Shown here in pieces: positions 6,264 through 11,249 of a DNA stretch of 33,781 nt. The stretch's first letter is position 1. Each line of letters opens with the position of its first letter. The translations under genes and the position numbers were made by a program. The notes below the pieces were generated by a model that saw nothing but the letters and a program-made list of their open reading frames with translations, did no database searches and had not been told where the DNA came from. Source of the DNA: Sulfurimonas crateris (GTDB lineage Bacteria; Campylobacterota; Campylobacteria; Campylobacterales; Sulfurimonadaceae); assembly GCA_945883795.1 (NCBI GenBank), contig CAMCYC010000023.1:1-33781 (forward strand). Reading direction: 5' to 3'.

Positions 6264-7571
6264 ATGCCAAAAAAAAGACACAATAGTACAAAAAATAATC
6301 GTCAAACCTTAATTTATCTTGCTTGGAGTTTGGCGATTATTGCAGTCGTGATGGGTATTGTTATTACGGAATATTATTTTCGATATTCTGATACTGATGA
6401 AAATATCACAAAAAAAGAAATTGTAGCGGAGCCTAACAAAACGCCAACAATCCTTGATAGGCTTGATGAAGCAGAGAAAAAAAGTGAAGAAGAGAAGCAA
6501 CAAGTACAAAGTGTGAATACTCGACTCAAAGAGGTTCTAAAAAAAGAAGCTTTATTGGAAGCAGATTTAAAAGAGGAACTTTCGATAACAGAGATACCTT
6601 TAAAGAAAGAGATAGCCAGAGAAGAGATACTTTTCAAAAAAGAGATACCGACAACGGAAATACCTCCAAAAAAAGAGATACCGACAACAGAAATACCTCC
6701 AAAAAAAGAGATACCGACAATAGAAATACCTCCAAAAAAAGAGATACCGACAACAGAAATACTTCCAAAAAAAGAGATAGTTGCACAAGAGATACCGATT
6801 AAAAAAGCGATACCGATTAAAAAAGAAATACTGAGTAAGCTTCCTGAATATCAAATGAGCGCAGCACATGAATATGATGATCCTATACTTGAATTACCGC
6901 CAACTAGAGCGATTAAACATAGTGTGAATAAGCCAAAATTAGCAATTATTATTGATGATGTATCTATGAAATCAGAAGTGAATGCAATTAAAAAATTACA
7001 TTTAATTTTAACTATGTCTTTTATGCCACCACGAAAAGAGAAACCTGCATCGGCATATTTGGCAAGTGCTGAAAATTTCTACATGGTGCATTTACCGCTT
7101 GAAGCTCTCAATTTTACAAAAGAGGAGCCAAAAACTCTTCATGTGGGTGATTCAGAGAAAACGATAGCTGAGAGAATCAAAGATATAAAAATGCTTTTTC
7201 CAAAAGTAAAATATATCAATAATCATACAGGTAGCAAATTTACCTCAAATGAATTAGCGATGAATCGTCTTATTTTTGCTCTTAAAGAAAATGATATACA
7301 GTTTGTCGATAGTAGAACAACTGCGCAAACAAAGGTTCCAAAGGTGATGAAAAATTTTGGATTATCGTATATTAGTAGAGATGTGTTTTTGGACCATGAA
7401 ATGGATAAAGCATATATTTTAAAACAGATAAAAGAGGCTATCAGAGTGGCAAAATTACATGGCACAGCGATTGCAATTGGACATCCGCATATAAACACAC
7501 TTCAGGCGTTAAGTGAATCTAAAGAGCTTTTAAAACAAGTTGATTTAGTGTATGTGAATAGACTTTATTAA
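6264..7571 (+). CDS. Divergent polysaccharide deacetylase family protein (YibQ-like) with membrane anchor
   Basis: Predicted inner-membrane-anchored protein with a periplasmic divergent polysaccharide deacetylase domain. Family members are thought to act on envelope glycans, but the substrate is unknown. Residues 14-36 form one membrane helix after a basic N-terminus. Residues 45-200 are a charged linker with four tandem copies of KKEIPTTEIPP (125-168) and degenerate flanking copies. The catalytic domain (about 224-435) shows LAIIIDD, NHTGSKFT (320-327), FLDH (375-378) and GHPH (406-409). GGAG-like GGAGC-context upstream (TTGGAGCG) supports the start at 6264. The stop overlaps the dprA start by one base (TAATG), so the two are probably translationally coupled. 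Confidence 0.85.
   Translation: MPKKRHNSTKNNRQTLIYLAWSLAIIAVVMGIVITEYYFRYSDTDENITKKEIVAEPNKTPTILDRLDEAEKKSEEEKQQVQSVNTRLKEVLKKEALLEADLKEELSITEIPLKKEIAREEILFKKEIPTTEIPPKKEIPTTEIPPKKEIPTIEIPPKKEIPTTEILPKKEIVAQEIPIKKAIPIKKEILSKLPEYQMSAAHEYDDPILELPPTRAIKHSVNKPKLAIIIDDVSMKSEVNAIKKLHLILTMSFMPPRKEKPASAYLASAENFYMVHLPLEALNFTKEEPKTLHVGDSEKTIAERIKDIKMLFPKVKYINNHTGSKFTSNELAMNRLIFALKENDIQFVDSRTTAQTKVPKVMKNFGLSYISRDVFLDHEMDKAYILKQIKEAIRVAKLHGTAIAIGHPHINTLQALSESKELLKQVDLVYVNRLY
6636..6767 (+). repeat. 33-bp tandem repeat, four in-frame copies
   Basis: Four consecutive 33-base units each encode KKEI-PTTEIPP or a near variant (PTIEIPP, PTTEILP). They form a periodic Lys/Glu/Pro spacer between the membrane anchor and the deacetylase domain. 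More diverged copies lie on both sides (about 6600-6635 and 6768-6835), suggesting expansion by slippage. The unit length keeps the frame, so copy number could vary between strains without breaking the gene. Confidence 0.85.
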
Positions 7572-8341
7572 TGCCTCTTGTAGAAGATAAAATTCCAGAA
7601 TTAGCTTGCATGAAAAGCTATCCAAAAGAGCTTTTTTATGCAGGAGACATGACTCTTTTAACATCAAAAAAAATCTCTATTGTTGGAAGTCGCAAACCTA
7701 GCAAATATTCAAAAGAGATAACATACAAACTTGCCTCTGCACTTGGAAAATCTGAAATTTGTGTGGTAAGTGGTGGTGCTATGGGGATTGACGCTATTGC
7801 TCACATGGGAGCAGGAAGTGGTAATACTATCTCTGTTTTGCCATGTGGCATTGATATAAAATATCCAGCAGTGAATAAAAATTTACTCACGGATATACAA
7901 AATAATGGTCTTTTACTCAGCCAATTTAGTGAAGGTTTTAAAGCCACACCATGGAGTTTTGTTTTACGAAATGAAGTTGTGGTTGCCCTCGGTCATGTTT
8001 TGGTTGTAGCAGAGGCAGAGCTTGATAGTGGAAGTATGAGAAGTATAGAATTCGCTTTAAAAATGAAAAAAGAGATTTTTGTTTTACCTCAAAGAATAGG
8101 CGAAAGTGGTGCAACGAATGCACTTTTGAAAGATTTTAAAGCAAAAGCTATTTACGATATAGACGAATTTGTATCGCAATTTAGTGGCGTTGTATTGCAA
8201 GTTAGAAGTGATGATTTTCTCTCGTATTGTAATACCAATCCAATTTATGATGAAGCTTTGAGCAAATATCCCAATAAAATTTTTGAAGCTGAACTTAGTG
8301 GAGAAATAGAGATACGAAATGGGAAGATTTTTGTAATTTAA
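7571..8341 (+). CDS. dprA: DNA processing protein DprA, short form
   Basis: DprA binds incoming single-stranded DNA during natural transformation and loads RecA. The Rossmann-like core shows SIVGSRKPSKYS, VVSGGAMGIDAIAH, ISVLPCGIDIKYP and FVLRNEVVVALGHVLVVAEA, then GESGATNALLKDFKAKAI. The last 45 residues (NPIYDEALSKYPNKIFEAEL) look like the small winged-helix DML1 domain. The N-terminal SAM domain of longer homologues is absent. The 256-residue length matches the compact two-domain form known from Helicobacter. The start overlaps the stop of the deacetylase gene by one base. The gene implies, but does not prove, natural competence. Confidence 0.92.
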   Translation: MPLVEDKIPELACMKSYPKELFYAGDMTLLTSKKISIVGSRKPSKYSKEITYKLASALGKSEICVVSGGAMGIDAIAHMGAGSGNTISVLPCGIDIKYPAVNKNLLTDIQNNGLLLSQFSEGFKATPWSFVLRNEVVVALGHVLVVAEAELDSGSMRSIEFALKMKKEIFVLPQRIGESGATNALLKDFKAKAIYDIDEFVSQFSGVVLQVRSDDFLSYCNTNPIYDEALSKYPNKIFEAELSGEIEIRNGKIFVI

Positions 8342-8373: not shown

Positions 8374-9456
8374 TCACTTACTTTTAGTGATAATCTCAAT
8401 GGGCGAAAGATGCATTTGATTTTCTAAAGTCTTGTATGTTGCCTCAATTCCTTTATAAAATATATTTTCCATATCATTTTTGTATTTTTTTTCTAATGCT
8501 TCAAGTTCTTGTTTGAGTGTTTTTTCAAACTCCTCTTTATTCATGGCTTCATCCACTTTACTCACTGTAAAATCAACTCCAATCCAAGTAGCACTTCCAA
8601 CGGCAACACCACAAAGTAATGCCCAAGGACCACTTGGTGCGCATAAGGTTATACCCGTTGAAGCACCTGTTAAAAAACCTCCTGCTTTTGCACCAAGTTT
8701 AATTCCTGATTTTGCTAATAATTTAGTTGTAATTGATTTTGTTAGGAGTAATCCTAATCCCGCAACTCCACCTTTTTCAATTGTTGCATTTATTAAATCA
8801 TGGTGTGCATTCACAAATGCATACTCAATCTCTTTTTTGAGTTCGTCTATTTTTGCTAGATTTGCATCATTTAAATTTTGTATCTTTTGTGTATTGATAG
8901 TTTTAAGAATAGTATCTTTGGATTGGTCTAATAATTTTGCCATCTCTGTATGCGCATCGATGTAAATTTTTTCTATTTGTTGCTCAAATTCTCCATTACC
9001 GAATAACACCTCTTTTACTTCATTAAAACTTTTTTGAGCATATTCGTTTATTTTTGGAGTCGGTAGTGGTACATTTTTATCATGCCAGATTGATGTGCGT
9101 ACAAAATAACTCCATTCTTGCCATAATGAAGCTGTTTTACTTTTACCAATTTGGTAAATCATAATATAGTCATGATACCAAGTGTATTGAGTTTGCGTAA
9201 ATGCAGGTATTTTTTCATATACACTTATAAAAGCATTATGGACATTATTGTTTATAAATAGGGTTATCTCTTGATTGTTTTTTTCTTTTTCTTGCTTGAC
9301 TTGCTCTTGAATAGGTTTTAATATCGCTTCTATATCTTGTTGAGGTTTTTCAAAAACTAAAGTTAAACTCACTAACAGTAAAATAAGAATTGTTCCAAAA
9401 AATCCAAGATAAAATTTATCTATATAAAAATGTTGTTTTTTTGTCTCTTCATTCAA
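8374..9456 (-). CDS. Unrecognised single-anchor protein with glycine-rich hydrophobic region
   Basis: Not recognised. There is an N-terminal membrane helix (FYLGFFGTILILLLVSLTLV), then a long charged helical stretch with predicted coiled coils. A Gly/Ala-rich hydrophobic region follows (GGVAGLGLLLTKS through CAPSGPWALLCGVAVGSA), long enough for a membrane hairpin. The tail is charged (KTLKQELEALEKKYKND). The start is set at TTG 9456 (360 residues): AAAGG lies seven bases upstream, and the TTG overlaps the upstream gene's TGA as TTGA. The frame could begin at GTG 9510, but that has no binding site and would overlap the upstream gene by 58 bases. It is the last gene of the tatB-tatC-queA run, so it is probably made with its membrane partner at 9453-10217. 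Confidence 0.7.
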   Translation of the reverse strand: MNEETKKQHFYIDKFYLGFFGTILILLLVSLTLVFEKPQQDIEAILKPIQEQVKQEKEKNNQEITLFINNNVHNAFISVYEKIPAFTQTQYTWYHDYIMIYQIGKSKTASLWQEWSYFVRTSIWHDKNVPLPTPKINEYAQKSFNEVKEVLFGNGEFEQQIEKIYIDAHTEMAKLLDQSKDTILKTINTQKIQNLNDANLAKIDELKKEIEYAFVNAHHDLINATIEKGGVAGLGLLLTKSITTKLLAKSGIKLGAKAGGFLTGASTGITLCAPSGPWALLCGVAVGSATWIGVDFTVSKVDEAMNKEEFEKTLKQELEALEKKYKNDMENIFYKGIEATYKTLENQMHLSPIEIITKSK

Positions 9457-10217
9457 AAAATAGCCTTTATATCGTTTGTTGTACTTAAAATCAATTTGGA
9501 ATATATCCACATATACAAAGTTTCAAGACTTAGAAAAAGAGTCCATCCTAAAAATGATAATCCCTGATATTGGACATGAAGTGAGAGTTGCATCATACCC
9601 CACCATGCAAACGCTTCTTTAAAGAGGTCATAAGAGTAGAGCAATTTTACAATGCCACATTGCACTGTTGCAGAGAGTGTTTGAGCATTTTGTAGCGAGG
9701 CAGTTAAAGAGGGTTCTAAATAAGTTGGAGGATTAGAATAAAAAAGTGTGGTGATTAAAATAGGTGTCATAACAATTATATTAAGAGAAATTGCTATTTT
9801 TTTGGCGACAATATGTTGTACATCTTCTTTGACATGAAGTTTTACTTTTTTTAATAACCATATATAAAGAGCAATCAAAAATAGTATATCTAACGACATG
9901 ATGAGAACAAGATTTGATTGCCACTCTATAATATTAATTAAAAGAAGTATCCCAAAAAACATGGCTTGAAAAAGAGATTTTAAAAGCACTATCCATTTTG
10001 ATTGTAACCATACAAACATCCAAGAAGTATCATAAAATATAACATGAGCAACACTTTTTCTATAAAGCAAAGAGCCCTCCGCAAACGAGAGCGTTAAAAA
10101 TGAGATGACAACAAATGCAACAGTAATAAAAATAGCACATGAAGAAGTGTAAAAGAGTTTCCAAAAAATAAGAGTGGCAAAAAGTATAAATAATTGAAAA
10201 TAAGCTATTTTATACAT
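9453..10217 (-). CDS. Unrecognised polytopic membrane protein (254 residues)
   Basis: Not recognised. About six membrane helices are visible: near residues 5-20, 27-47, 76-98, 102-124, 142-162 and 222-245. A hydrophilic loop at about 163-220 (NPPTYLEPSLTASLQNAQ) is probably periplasmic and contains one cysteine. The protein is rich in W, Y and F, with no obvious transporter or enzyme motif. The ATG follows the queA stop by three bases with no strong binding site, so translation probably depends on queA. The stop overlaps the start of the next gene as TTGA. The tight coupling suggests the two products work together. Confidence 0.72.
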   Translation of the reverse strand: MYKIAYFQLFILFATLIFWKLFYTSSCAIFITVAFVVISFLTLSFAEGSLLYRKSVAHVIFYDTSWMFVWLQSKWIVLLKSLFQAMFFGILLLINIIEWQSNLVLIMSLDILFLIALYIWLLKKVKLHVKEDVQHIVAKKIAISLNIIVMTPILITTLFYSNPPTYLEPSLTASLQNAQTLSATVQCGIVKLLYSYDLFKEAFAWWGMMQLSLHVQYQGLSFLGWTLFLSLETLYMWIYSKLILSTTNDIKAIF

Positions 10218-10220
10218 CTT

Positions 10221-11249
10221 TTACAAAATTAACATTGCATCGCCATAAGAGTAAAATCTATATTTTTTATCAATCGCTTCTTTGTAAAGTTCTTGTGTTT
10301 TTTCTACTCCAATAAATGAGGCAACTAGCATGAGAAGTGTTGATTTTGGCAAGTGAAAATTTGTGAGTAAATGATTTACTCGTAAGGGCTTATTATTTGG
10401 GTGTAAAAAGAGATTTACTTCCCCTTTTTGTTGCTCTTTATGGCGTGCGTAAAACTCAATTGTTCTTGTTGAGGTTGTTCCGACACTTAGAATTTTTTGT
10501 TCTGAATCTAGTATTTTTTTAGCTTCATTGGATATATCATAATATTCAGAATGGATAGGATGCTCTGTAATAATTTGAGTTTCTACGGGTTTAAATGTTC
10601 CACTTCCTACATGCAAAGTGATATACGCATGGGAAAAATTTTTACAAATTCTTTCATGTTGCTCTGGAGTGAAATGAAGTGATGCTGTTGGTGCTGCAAC
10701 TGCTCCCTCTTCTCTTGCAAAAACACTTTGATATTCAGTTTCATCTGCTTTATCATCGTCTCTTTGTATATATGGAGGCAGAGGCACATGACCAATTTTA
10801 TCTATAATTGGTAAAAGTTCTTCAAATCTGAGCTTTTGATTTTCTCTAAAAAAGTTTACAACTCTACTGCCATCCTCATGCAACTCTTTTATAATGACGG
10901 TTACATTTTCATCAAAATATAAAGCATTTTCTACTTTTACTTTTCCTCGAATATAAACATTGATATCATAAGCATTTAAGGCTCGATTGATAAGGAGTTC
11001 AATTTTCCCACCACTTGGTTTTTTTCCATAGAGTCTTGCTTTTATAACTTTTGTATCATTAAAAATAAGTGCACAATCTTGAGGGATAAATTTTTCTAAA
11101 TCATAAAAATTTGCATGGGTAATTGTATCTGTCTTGTGTTCATACACTAAAAGTTTTGCATGGTCTCTAGGCGTTACTGGGTGGGTTGCTATAAGCTCTT
11201 GAGGGAGAAAGAAATTATAGCTTGCAGTGAGTAATTCAAAATTACTCAC
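10221..11249 (-). CDS. queA: S-adenosylmethionine:tRNA ribosyltransferase-isomerase
   Basis: Transfers and isomerises the ribosyl moiety of S-adenosylmethionine onto preQ1 in tRNA, giving epoxyqueuosine (queuosine pathway, cytoplasm). Typical blocks are YNFFLPQELIATHPV near the N-terminus, IFNDTKVIKARLYGKK, GHVPLPPYIQRDD, EEGAVAAPTASLHFT, HVGSGTFKPV and SVGTTSTRTIE, then NHLLTNFHLPKSTLLMLV. The 342-residue length is normal. The start is GTG at 11249, supported by GAGG seven bases upstream. It overlaps tatC by eight bases, and a membrane-protein gene follows three bases after the stop. Confidence 0.96.
   Translation of the reverse strand: MSNFELLTASYNFFLPQELIATHPVTPRDHAKLLVYEHKTDTITHANFYDLEKFIPQDCALIFNDTKVIKARLYGKKPSGGKIELLINRALNAYDINVYIRGKVKVENALYFDENVTVIIKELHEDGSRVVNFFRENQKLRFEELLPIIDKIGHVPLPPYIQRDDDKADETEYQSVFAREEGAVAAPTASLHFTPEQHERICKNFSHAYITLHVGSGTFKPVETQIITEHPIHSEYYDISNEAKKILDSEQKILSVGTTSTRTIEFYARHKEQQKGEVNLFLHPNNKPLRVNHLLTNFHLPKSTLLMLVASFIGVEKTQELYKEAIDKKYRFYSYGDAMLIL

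Follow-up and report, generated by a model that had tools for sequence, protein, structure and literature searches.

Prophage superinfection exclusion proteins, the dynamin superfamily, and the alpha-pore-forming proteins are the closest described counterparts of the gene pair reported here. Superinfection exclusion is represented by P22 SieA and HK97 gp15. According to one report (PMC10883804), SieA is a single protein of 162 to 164 aa with three predicted transmembrane segments. The dynamin superfamily, whose hallmark is a GTPase domain, includes BDLP, the Campylobacter DLP pair, and LeoA. As described elsewhere (PMC6104087), most bacterial DLP genes are also paired. The alpha-pore-forming proteins, among them ClyA, XaxB, AhlB, and MakA, are built as a long bundle of helices bearing a hydrophobic hairpin. 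The two genes described here, W1 and W2, lie in a 33,781-nucleotide stretch of Sulfurimonas crateris DNA (contig CAMCYC010000023.1), the whole of which we call the window. It is a well-supported conclusion that they represent a real, undescribed protein family made in two parts or as one chain. A literature search found no description of the pair, although an unnamed family escapes such searches and absence from print is not implied.

The features of the locus are listed in Table 1. W1 begins three bases past the queA stop codon (intervening positions 10218 to 10220), and the W1 stop codon TGA (9455 to 9453) overlaps the TTG start codon of W2 (9456) in the string TTGA. Both arrangements had been pointed out in a sequence-only reading of the window, and the coordinates and letters bear them out. 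An AAAGG motif is located a few bases 5' of the TTG. Starting W2 at a GTG at 9510 would give a longer protein of 378 aa; the TTG was preferred because the family alignment starts near it. Pfam identified queA, tatC, and a TatA/B-family protein on one side of the pair and dprA on the other. Scans for promoters and terminators gave results at or near chance level. Elsewhere in the window (6264 to 7571) is a gene for a polysaccharide-deacetylase-like protein with repeated KKEIPTTEIPP-type units ahead of its Pfam domain.

Table 1. Coordinates of the W1-W2 locus and of features within the two proteins (window numbering)
Feature	Positions	Strand	Remarks
W1	9453-10217	-	254 aa, ATG start; polytopic membrane protein, predicted N-in/C-in
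queA	10221-11249	-	Pfam match
W2	8374-9456	-	360 aa, bitopic protein, TTG start
Inserted segment	8342-10220		Between convergent dprA (ends at 8341, + strand) and queA (ends at 10221, - strand)
W1 Cys27	10137-10139	-	Predicted periplasmic loop 1-2; co-varies with Cys187
W1 Cys187	9657-9659	-	Predicted periplasmic loop 5-6
W2 N-terminal membrane anchor	9352-9408	-	Residues 17-35
W2 YTWYHDY	9166-9186	-	Divergent window form of the family motif [FY]-H-Y-S-x-x-G-E-Y
W2 hairpin region	8554-8772	-	Residues 229-301; low-confidence model
W2 Lys ladder K245-K249-K253-K257	8686-8724	-	Spacing i, i+4, on an Ala/Gly-rich stretch
W2 Cys272...Cys282	8611-8643	-	Hydrophobic half of the hairpin; co-varying, possible disulfide

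Neither protein could be placed in a known family, in agreement with the sequence-only reading. W1 had no match in Pfam, PHROGs, or NCBIfam; W2 had no family match in NCBIfam, and its best Pfam match, DKNYY (E = 0.001), fell below the cutoff of that family. Scans of ten relatives gave no family either, the one exception being the cytochrome c end of a doubtful member (L059), and sequence matches to solved structures included no convincing one and no alpha-pore-forming protein. In PADLOC, the W2 region of a fused relative weakly matched LeoA (1.5e-5) and LeoBC (2.8e-5). The LeoBC profile, run over genomes, had matches in all 60 searched and in each of 14 controls; its GTPase half accounts for most of these, so the control says nothing on the C-terminal half, the part that W2 matched. 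A phage structural or lysis protein was considered and rejected, the PHROGs matches of W2 having E values of 0.05 to 0.95. Chance open reading frames are excluded by the distant homologues of both proteins in many genomes.

We searched 398 genomes of the order for W2 and found it in 28 at E ≤ 0.001. In a 298-genome sample of the phylum, the W2 profile gave 36 matches, of which nine (1e-3 to 1e-5) were set aside as weak and 27, the window's own genome included, were below 1e-40, a patchy occurrence in Campylobacterota. The W1 profile, run on a 298-genome sample drawn likewise (taken to be the same set, as the genome lists agree), gave 40 matches. Every one of the 27 strong-W2 genomes is represented among them, and weak W1 hits elsewhere were set aside in the same way. 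Judged by open-frame length and position, W1 is fused to W2 in 16 of the 27 genomes, adjacent in 9, and unlinked in 2 (G116 and G197, on different contigs). One W1 match, in G481, reached only 3.6e-5, yet it shares a frame region with the W2 of that genome. Two of the 27 copies, a fusion (G506) and the W2 of an adjacent pair (G201), are broken by stops, and one genome (G129) has W1 and lacks W2. In the sequence-only reading, finding the genes apart in most relatives was to count against its proposal; instead, 25 of the 27 are fused or adjacent. Among seven genomes inspected, five (G283, G281, G101, G116, and G197) have W2 with no W1 next to it; in four of these W1 is on another contig, and in G101, which bears L059, W1 was not found in the genome.

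The doubtful W2-like protein L059 (positions 468 to 1589) bears a cytochrome c domain at its C terminus and lies 3' of a short ORF that looks caspase-like. At L176:2269-3324 and L177:418-1473, a 351-aa gene that reads, by eye, as ferredoxin-like directly precedes the unlinked W1. In one genus (g30; e.g., G323:C2:150497-151063), frames about 330 aa long match the W1 profile weakly (about 1e-5 to 1e-9) and possibly represent a distant W1 family with another partner.

A contig scan with 12 members (A3) yielded 44 loci, or 45 with the viral contig L118. The titles of the 44 name Campylobacterota, Alpha- and Gammaproteobacteria, and one MAG contig each of Puniceicoccaceae, "Bacilli" (L091), and "Klebsiella" (L116), of which the last two labels may be wrong. 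The family spans Campylobacterota, Proteobacteria and, going by label, one verrucomicrobial MAG contig. W1 is adjacent or fused in 35 of the 45 loci by profile and in four more (L103, L104, L108, and L110) by BLAST cluster. Four of the other six (L076, L083, L092, and L106) are, judging by length, contigs from genomes in which the pair is unlinked; the last two are L081 and L113.

In a W2 tree of 58 rows, from which L059 was excluded, 28 of 55 inner branches were starred. The fusion state changes seven times on this tree, with four over-extended ORFs (L050, L089, L109, and L111) set by hand to "split," and the Cys pair changes five times. A single clade of all fusions was rejected (p-AU 1.4e-47), as was a single clade of the genus's copies (p-AU 0.003); both values are optimistic because the tested clades were picked after the tree had been seen. 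The nearest copy to that of the window is a fused copy from another family, with 35% identity. Thus, co-occurrence in 27 of 27 genomes, whether fused, adjacent, or unlinked, and the seven changes in fusion state indicate that W1 and W2 are one functional unit, which the sequence-only reading had suggested from gene overlap and order. Natural fusions, co-occurrence even without linkage, and matched loss of Cys pairs make the partnership computationally strong.

A simple hydropathy scan gave four transmembrane segments in the window W1 and four to six in split relatives. In L085, a natural fusion modeled with AF2 (pLDDT 84.6, pTM 0.54), the W1 part has six long helices; the earlier description of W1 as a six-helix protein is therefore true as a family-level prediction. 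The placement of W1 against W2 in this model is no evidence of contact, since the alignment held only three fused rows. Positive residues of W1 are found in the N terminus, loops 2-3 and 4-5, and the C terminus. Loops 1-2 and 3-4 have very few of them, and acidic residues prevail in the net charge of loop 5-6. This distribution suggests an N-in/C-in topology with both cysteines outside. Among 48 W1 sequences (rows with E ≤ 1e-8, at least half of the columns, and <80% mutual identity, counted as sequences and not as events), the Cys pair is complete in 34, absent in 13, and reduced to one cysteine in 1, and a disulfide probably joins the periplasmic loops. Fisher p values for the Cys pairs of either protein ignore shared ancestry. 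A C-x3-C pair at W1 model columns 57 and 61 (25 and 24 of 48 members) falls in loop 2-3, which is predicted to be cytoplasmic; the window W1 does not have it.

The N-terminal anchor that the sequence-only reading had assigned to W2 is clear in the hydropathy scan. The W2 N terminus is net positive and the segment past the anchor is neutral; the positive N terminus, together with the fusions to a C-in W1, argues for an N-in orientation. The Gly/Ala-rich hairpin noted earlier is present as well and is more specific than had been stated: a Lys ladder (i, i+4) leads into a hydrophobic segment that has two cysteines. In model numbering, Lys recurs every four residues, at columns 225, 229, 233, 237, and 241 (78 to 98% K), where acidic residues are almost absent. 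The most conserved W2 columns are K233, D275, Y117, F14, K237, G256, D282, Y111, S112, and W271, and both Tyr residues of the family motif are invariant in family alignment A6. By the same counting rules, 51 of 59 W2 sequences have both hairpin cysteines, 8, including the doubtful L059, have neither, and none has one, which is consistent with a probable hairpin disulfide. The AF2 model of the window W2 (pLDDT 73.0, pTM 0.66; residues 229 to 301 below 50) is, like that of the fusion, all-helical. Charge bias and co-varying cysteines back the envelope location proposed in the sequence-only reading: the cysteine loops and the W2 bundle are predicted to be periplasmic, and both this placement and the topology with paired disulfides are moderately supported.

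We compared 35 congeneric queA loci, drawn from the 76 genomes with queA among 80 searched. At most 114 bases separate queA from the convergent dprA in 24 of them, 0.85 to about 6.5 kb lie between the two genes in 6, and no dprA was found in the examined sequence of 5; the dprA match of one locus, L121, is partial. By tblastn, W1/W2 was detected at none of the 35. The boundary is variable in the genus, with differing small cargo in the sisters L139, L140, L141, L166, L170, and L172. As judged from translations by eye, the nearest relative has a GGDEF protein there, and others have a FIST/PAS/GGDEF protein, a superoxide dismutase, an AraC-like regulator with a biotin carboxylase, an unknown membrane protein, or methyltransferases with a McrB-like ATPase; at L172, in one sister genome, the cargo reads as a restriction-modification cassette. 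Since queA abuts dprA in 24 of 35 loci, the pair is in none, and other cargo is in several, the pair is cargo inserted at this boundary. In three genomes (G378, G009, and G025), a fused W1-W2 is located elsewhere and the queA-dprA place is empty. Moreover, tblastn found neither tatC nor queA in the other W loci (L035 to L118). The coupling to a tatBC-queA operon put forward in the sequence-only reading finds no support in these loci and is accidental. A function of the pair in Tat export or queuosine synthesis, for which the three-base spacing from queA would speak, is contradicted by these comparative data; we reject it as extremely improbable. Position can mislead: the operon-like gap is an insertion at a variable boundary.

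The neighborhoods were surveyed with 134 proteins (of 180 listed references, redundant loci having been removed), tallied by family and not by protein and with no matched control set. Among them, no family occurred more than twice in Pfam or PHROGs or more than once in PADLOC. No PADLOC family being common to two neighbors, a defense-island pattern is not seen. tRNA genes are near only 3 of 58 loci scanned. Mobility is supported by the rejected genus clade and by the lack of a recurrent Pfam neighbor family. Altogether, both the nearly exceptionless co-occurrence of the two parts and their movement as cargo are well supported.

Two viral contigs provide phage-like contexts. On one (L118/L200; 26.9 kb), a CI-like repressor (phrog_4, 8e-41), an ORF, W1, W2, DUF2924, and a serine recombinase are followed by a small ORF and an oligopeptide ABC transporter on the other strand. 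The second (L201) has DUF2924, a serine integrase (phrog_95, 8e-106), W1, and W2, with a Sak4-like annealing protein earlier on the other strand. Two further loci count as weaker contexts: in L109, a phrog_13283 protein and a Peptidase_M15 protein precede the pair and a tRNA-Met follows W2, with no match of the phrog_13283 protein to phage records, and L116 has an upstream DNA polymerase matched by PHROGs and PolA structures. On a Paracoccus plasmid, a partial W2 match spans two annotated genes; IS elements and a toxin-antitoxin pair are nearby. Near the pair in L111 (9700 to 12876) is a gene for a 1,059-aa protein with an Upf1/Sen1/Dna2-like helicase region. Scans of IMG/VR (2.9 million contigs) found the pair on two contigs only, and three queries against 50,697 phage records did not find it; thus, phage carriage is rare.

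Our preferred reading, which we hold tentatively, is that the pair may be a mobile protective envelope module, perhaps one that excludes phage entry. W1 and W2 would make one autonomous, horizontally mobile envelope complex. W1 would be its six-helix inner-membrane subunit, with a probable disulfide between periplasmic loops, and W2 would consist of a single N-terminal helix anchor and a periplasmic helical bundle, whose Lys-ladder/hydrophobic hairpin, with a second probable disulfide, may contact or insert into a membrane. In the window, the pair is accessory cargo at the queA-dprA boundary and has no relation to Tat or queuosine. It might act at the inner membrane/periplasm to keep phage DNA from entering, or it might be a membrane-acting defense; phage exclusion or another membrane-acting protective role is speculative. 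The partnership, the mobility, the insertion, the predicted topology, and the phage-like contexts are counted in favor of this reading, as is the apparent restriction-modification cassette at the same boundary in L172. Against a protective module, most loci have no visible phage-like features, phage carriage is rare, the queA-dprA boundary cargo is mixed, and there is no defense-island pattern; in addition, W1 and W2 are unlinked in four genomes, which is unusual for a mobile defense module. We regard as distinctly unlikely the narrower version of this module in which a disulfide-stabilized inner-membrane base would carry a GTPase-free, dynamin-stalk-like periplasmic bundle with a Lys-ladder hairpin, exchanged by bacteria and prophages against phage entry.

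The chromosomal look of most loci also fits a host envelope organizer or tether that would serve niche fitness and not defense, with W2 as a GTPase-less dynamin stalk, its hairpin on the membrane, and W1 as the base. This alternative, which we judge somewhat unlikely, draws on the weak LeoA and LeoBC matches and on the VIA comparisons, where dynamin/Mx stalks head the list for both models (4x0r_B, Z 11.7, rmsd 4.3, 198 aligned; 5a3f_A, Z 11.8, rmsd 5.3, 205 aligned). However, a designed helical bundle (4uos) ranks second for the fusion model at Z 10.8, and a helical-bundle Z under about 13 may reflect only a common arrangement. Foldseek found no match at E ≤ 0.001 for either model, viral structures included, and the first rows for the window W2 were alpha-pore-forming chains, not dynamins. 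hhalign of W2 against Campylobacterota dynamin-like proteins gave probabilities of 0.3 and 0.8%, with just 3 and 2 sequences on the dynamin side, and Pfam matched no GTPase domain in W1, W2, or ten relatives.

Those first Foldseek rows (MakA, AhlB, PaxB, HblL1, and XaxB; best 7p3r_B, E 0.035, probability 0.30) and the VIA scores of XaxB, AhlB, SmhB, and ClyA (Z 5 to 8), together with a helical bundle bearing a hydrophobic Gly/Ala hairpin, would suit a membrane-perforating effector in which the W2 hairpin forms a pore in the alpha-pore-forming manner and W1 is its partner or regulator. Nevertheless, the E values are nonsignificant and TM-scores are about 0.13. Permanent anchoring of W2 is predicted, its surroundings showed no secretion context, and its frequent fusion to W1 would be odd for a toxin and its immunity protein; we find this role improbable. 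Given Z values below the bundle-safe level, nonsignificant Foldseek E values, and the negative sequence comparison, we claim neither a dynamin nor an alpha-pore fold; as modeled, the W2 bundle weakly resembles both. A polytopic protein repeatedly fused to an anchored periplasmic partner could also be a transporter or efflux accessory, with a solute moved by W1 and W2 as the periplasmic adaptor. R242, however, is the sole charged residue among the 28 most conserved W1 columns, and no transport gene recurs among the neighbors, which makes such a function, in our estimate, even less probable than the perforating one.

Unnamed modules of this kind are a source of new envelope functions or phage defenses. 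As in the dynamin superfamily, W2 is modeled as a bundle of helices with a hydrophobic stretch between them; unlike dynamins, it has an N-terminal anchor, is predicted to be periplasmic, and has no GTPase domain, and no sequence relationship was found. With the alpha-pore-forming proteins W2 would share the long bundle and hydrophobic hairpin, whereas it is predicted to be membrane-anchored, is coupled to W1, and scores low in structural comparison. Set beside SieA and gp15 by description, W1-W2 differs from SieA in its size of about 600 aa, divided over two parts, in its bundle, which is predicted to be periplasmic, and in being seldom found on phages. Nonetheless, it is likewise accessory and predicted to reside in the inner membrane, and it lies beside an integrase on two viral contigs and beside a repressor on one of them.
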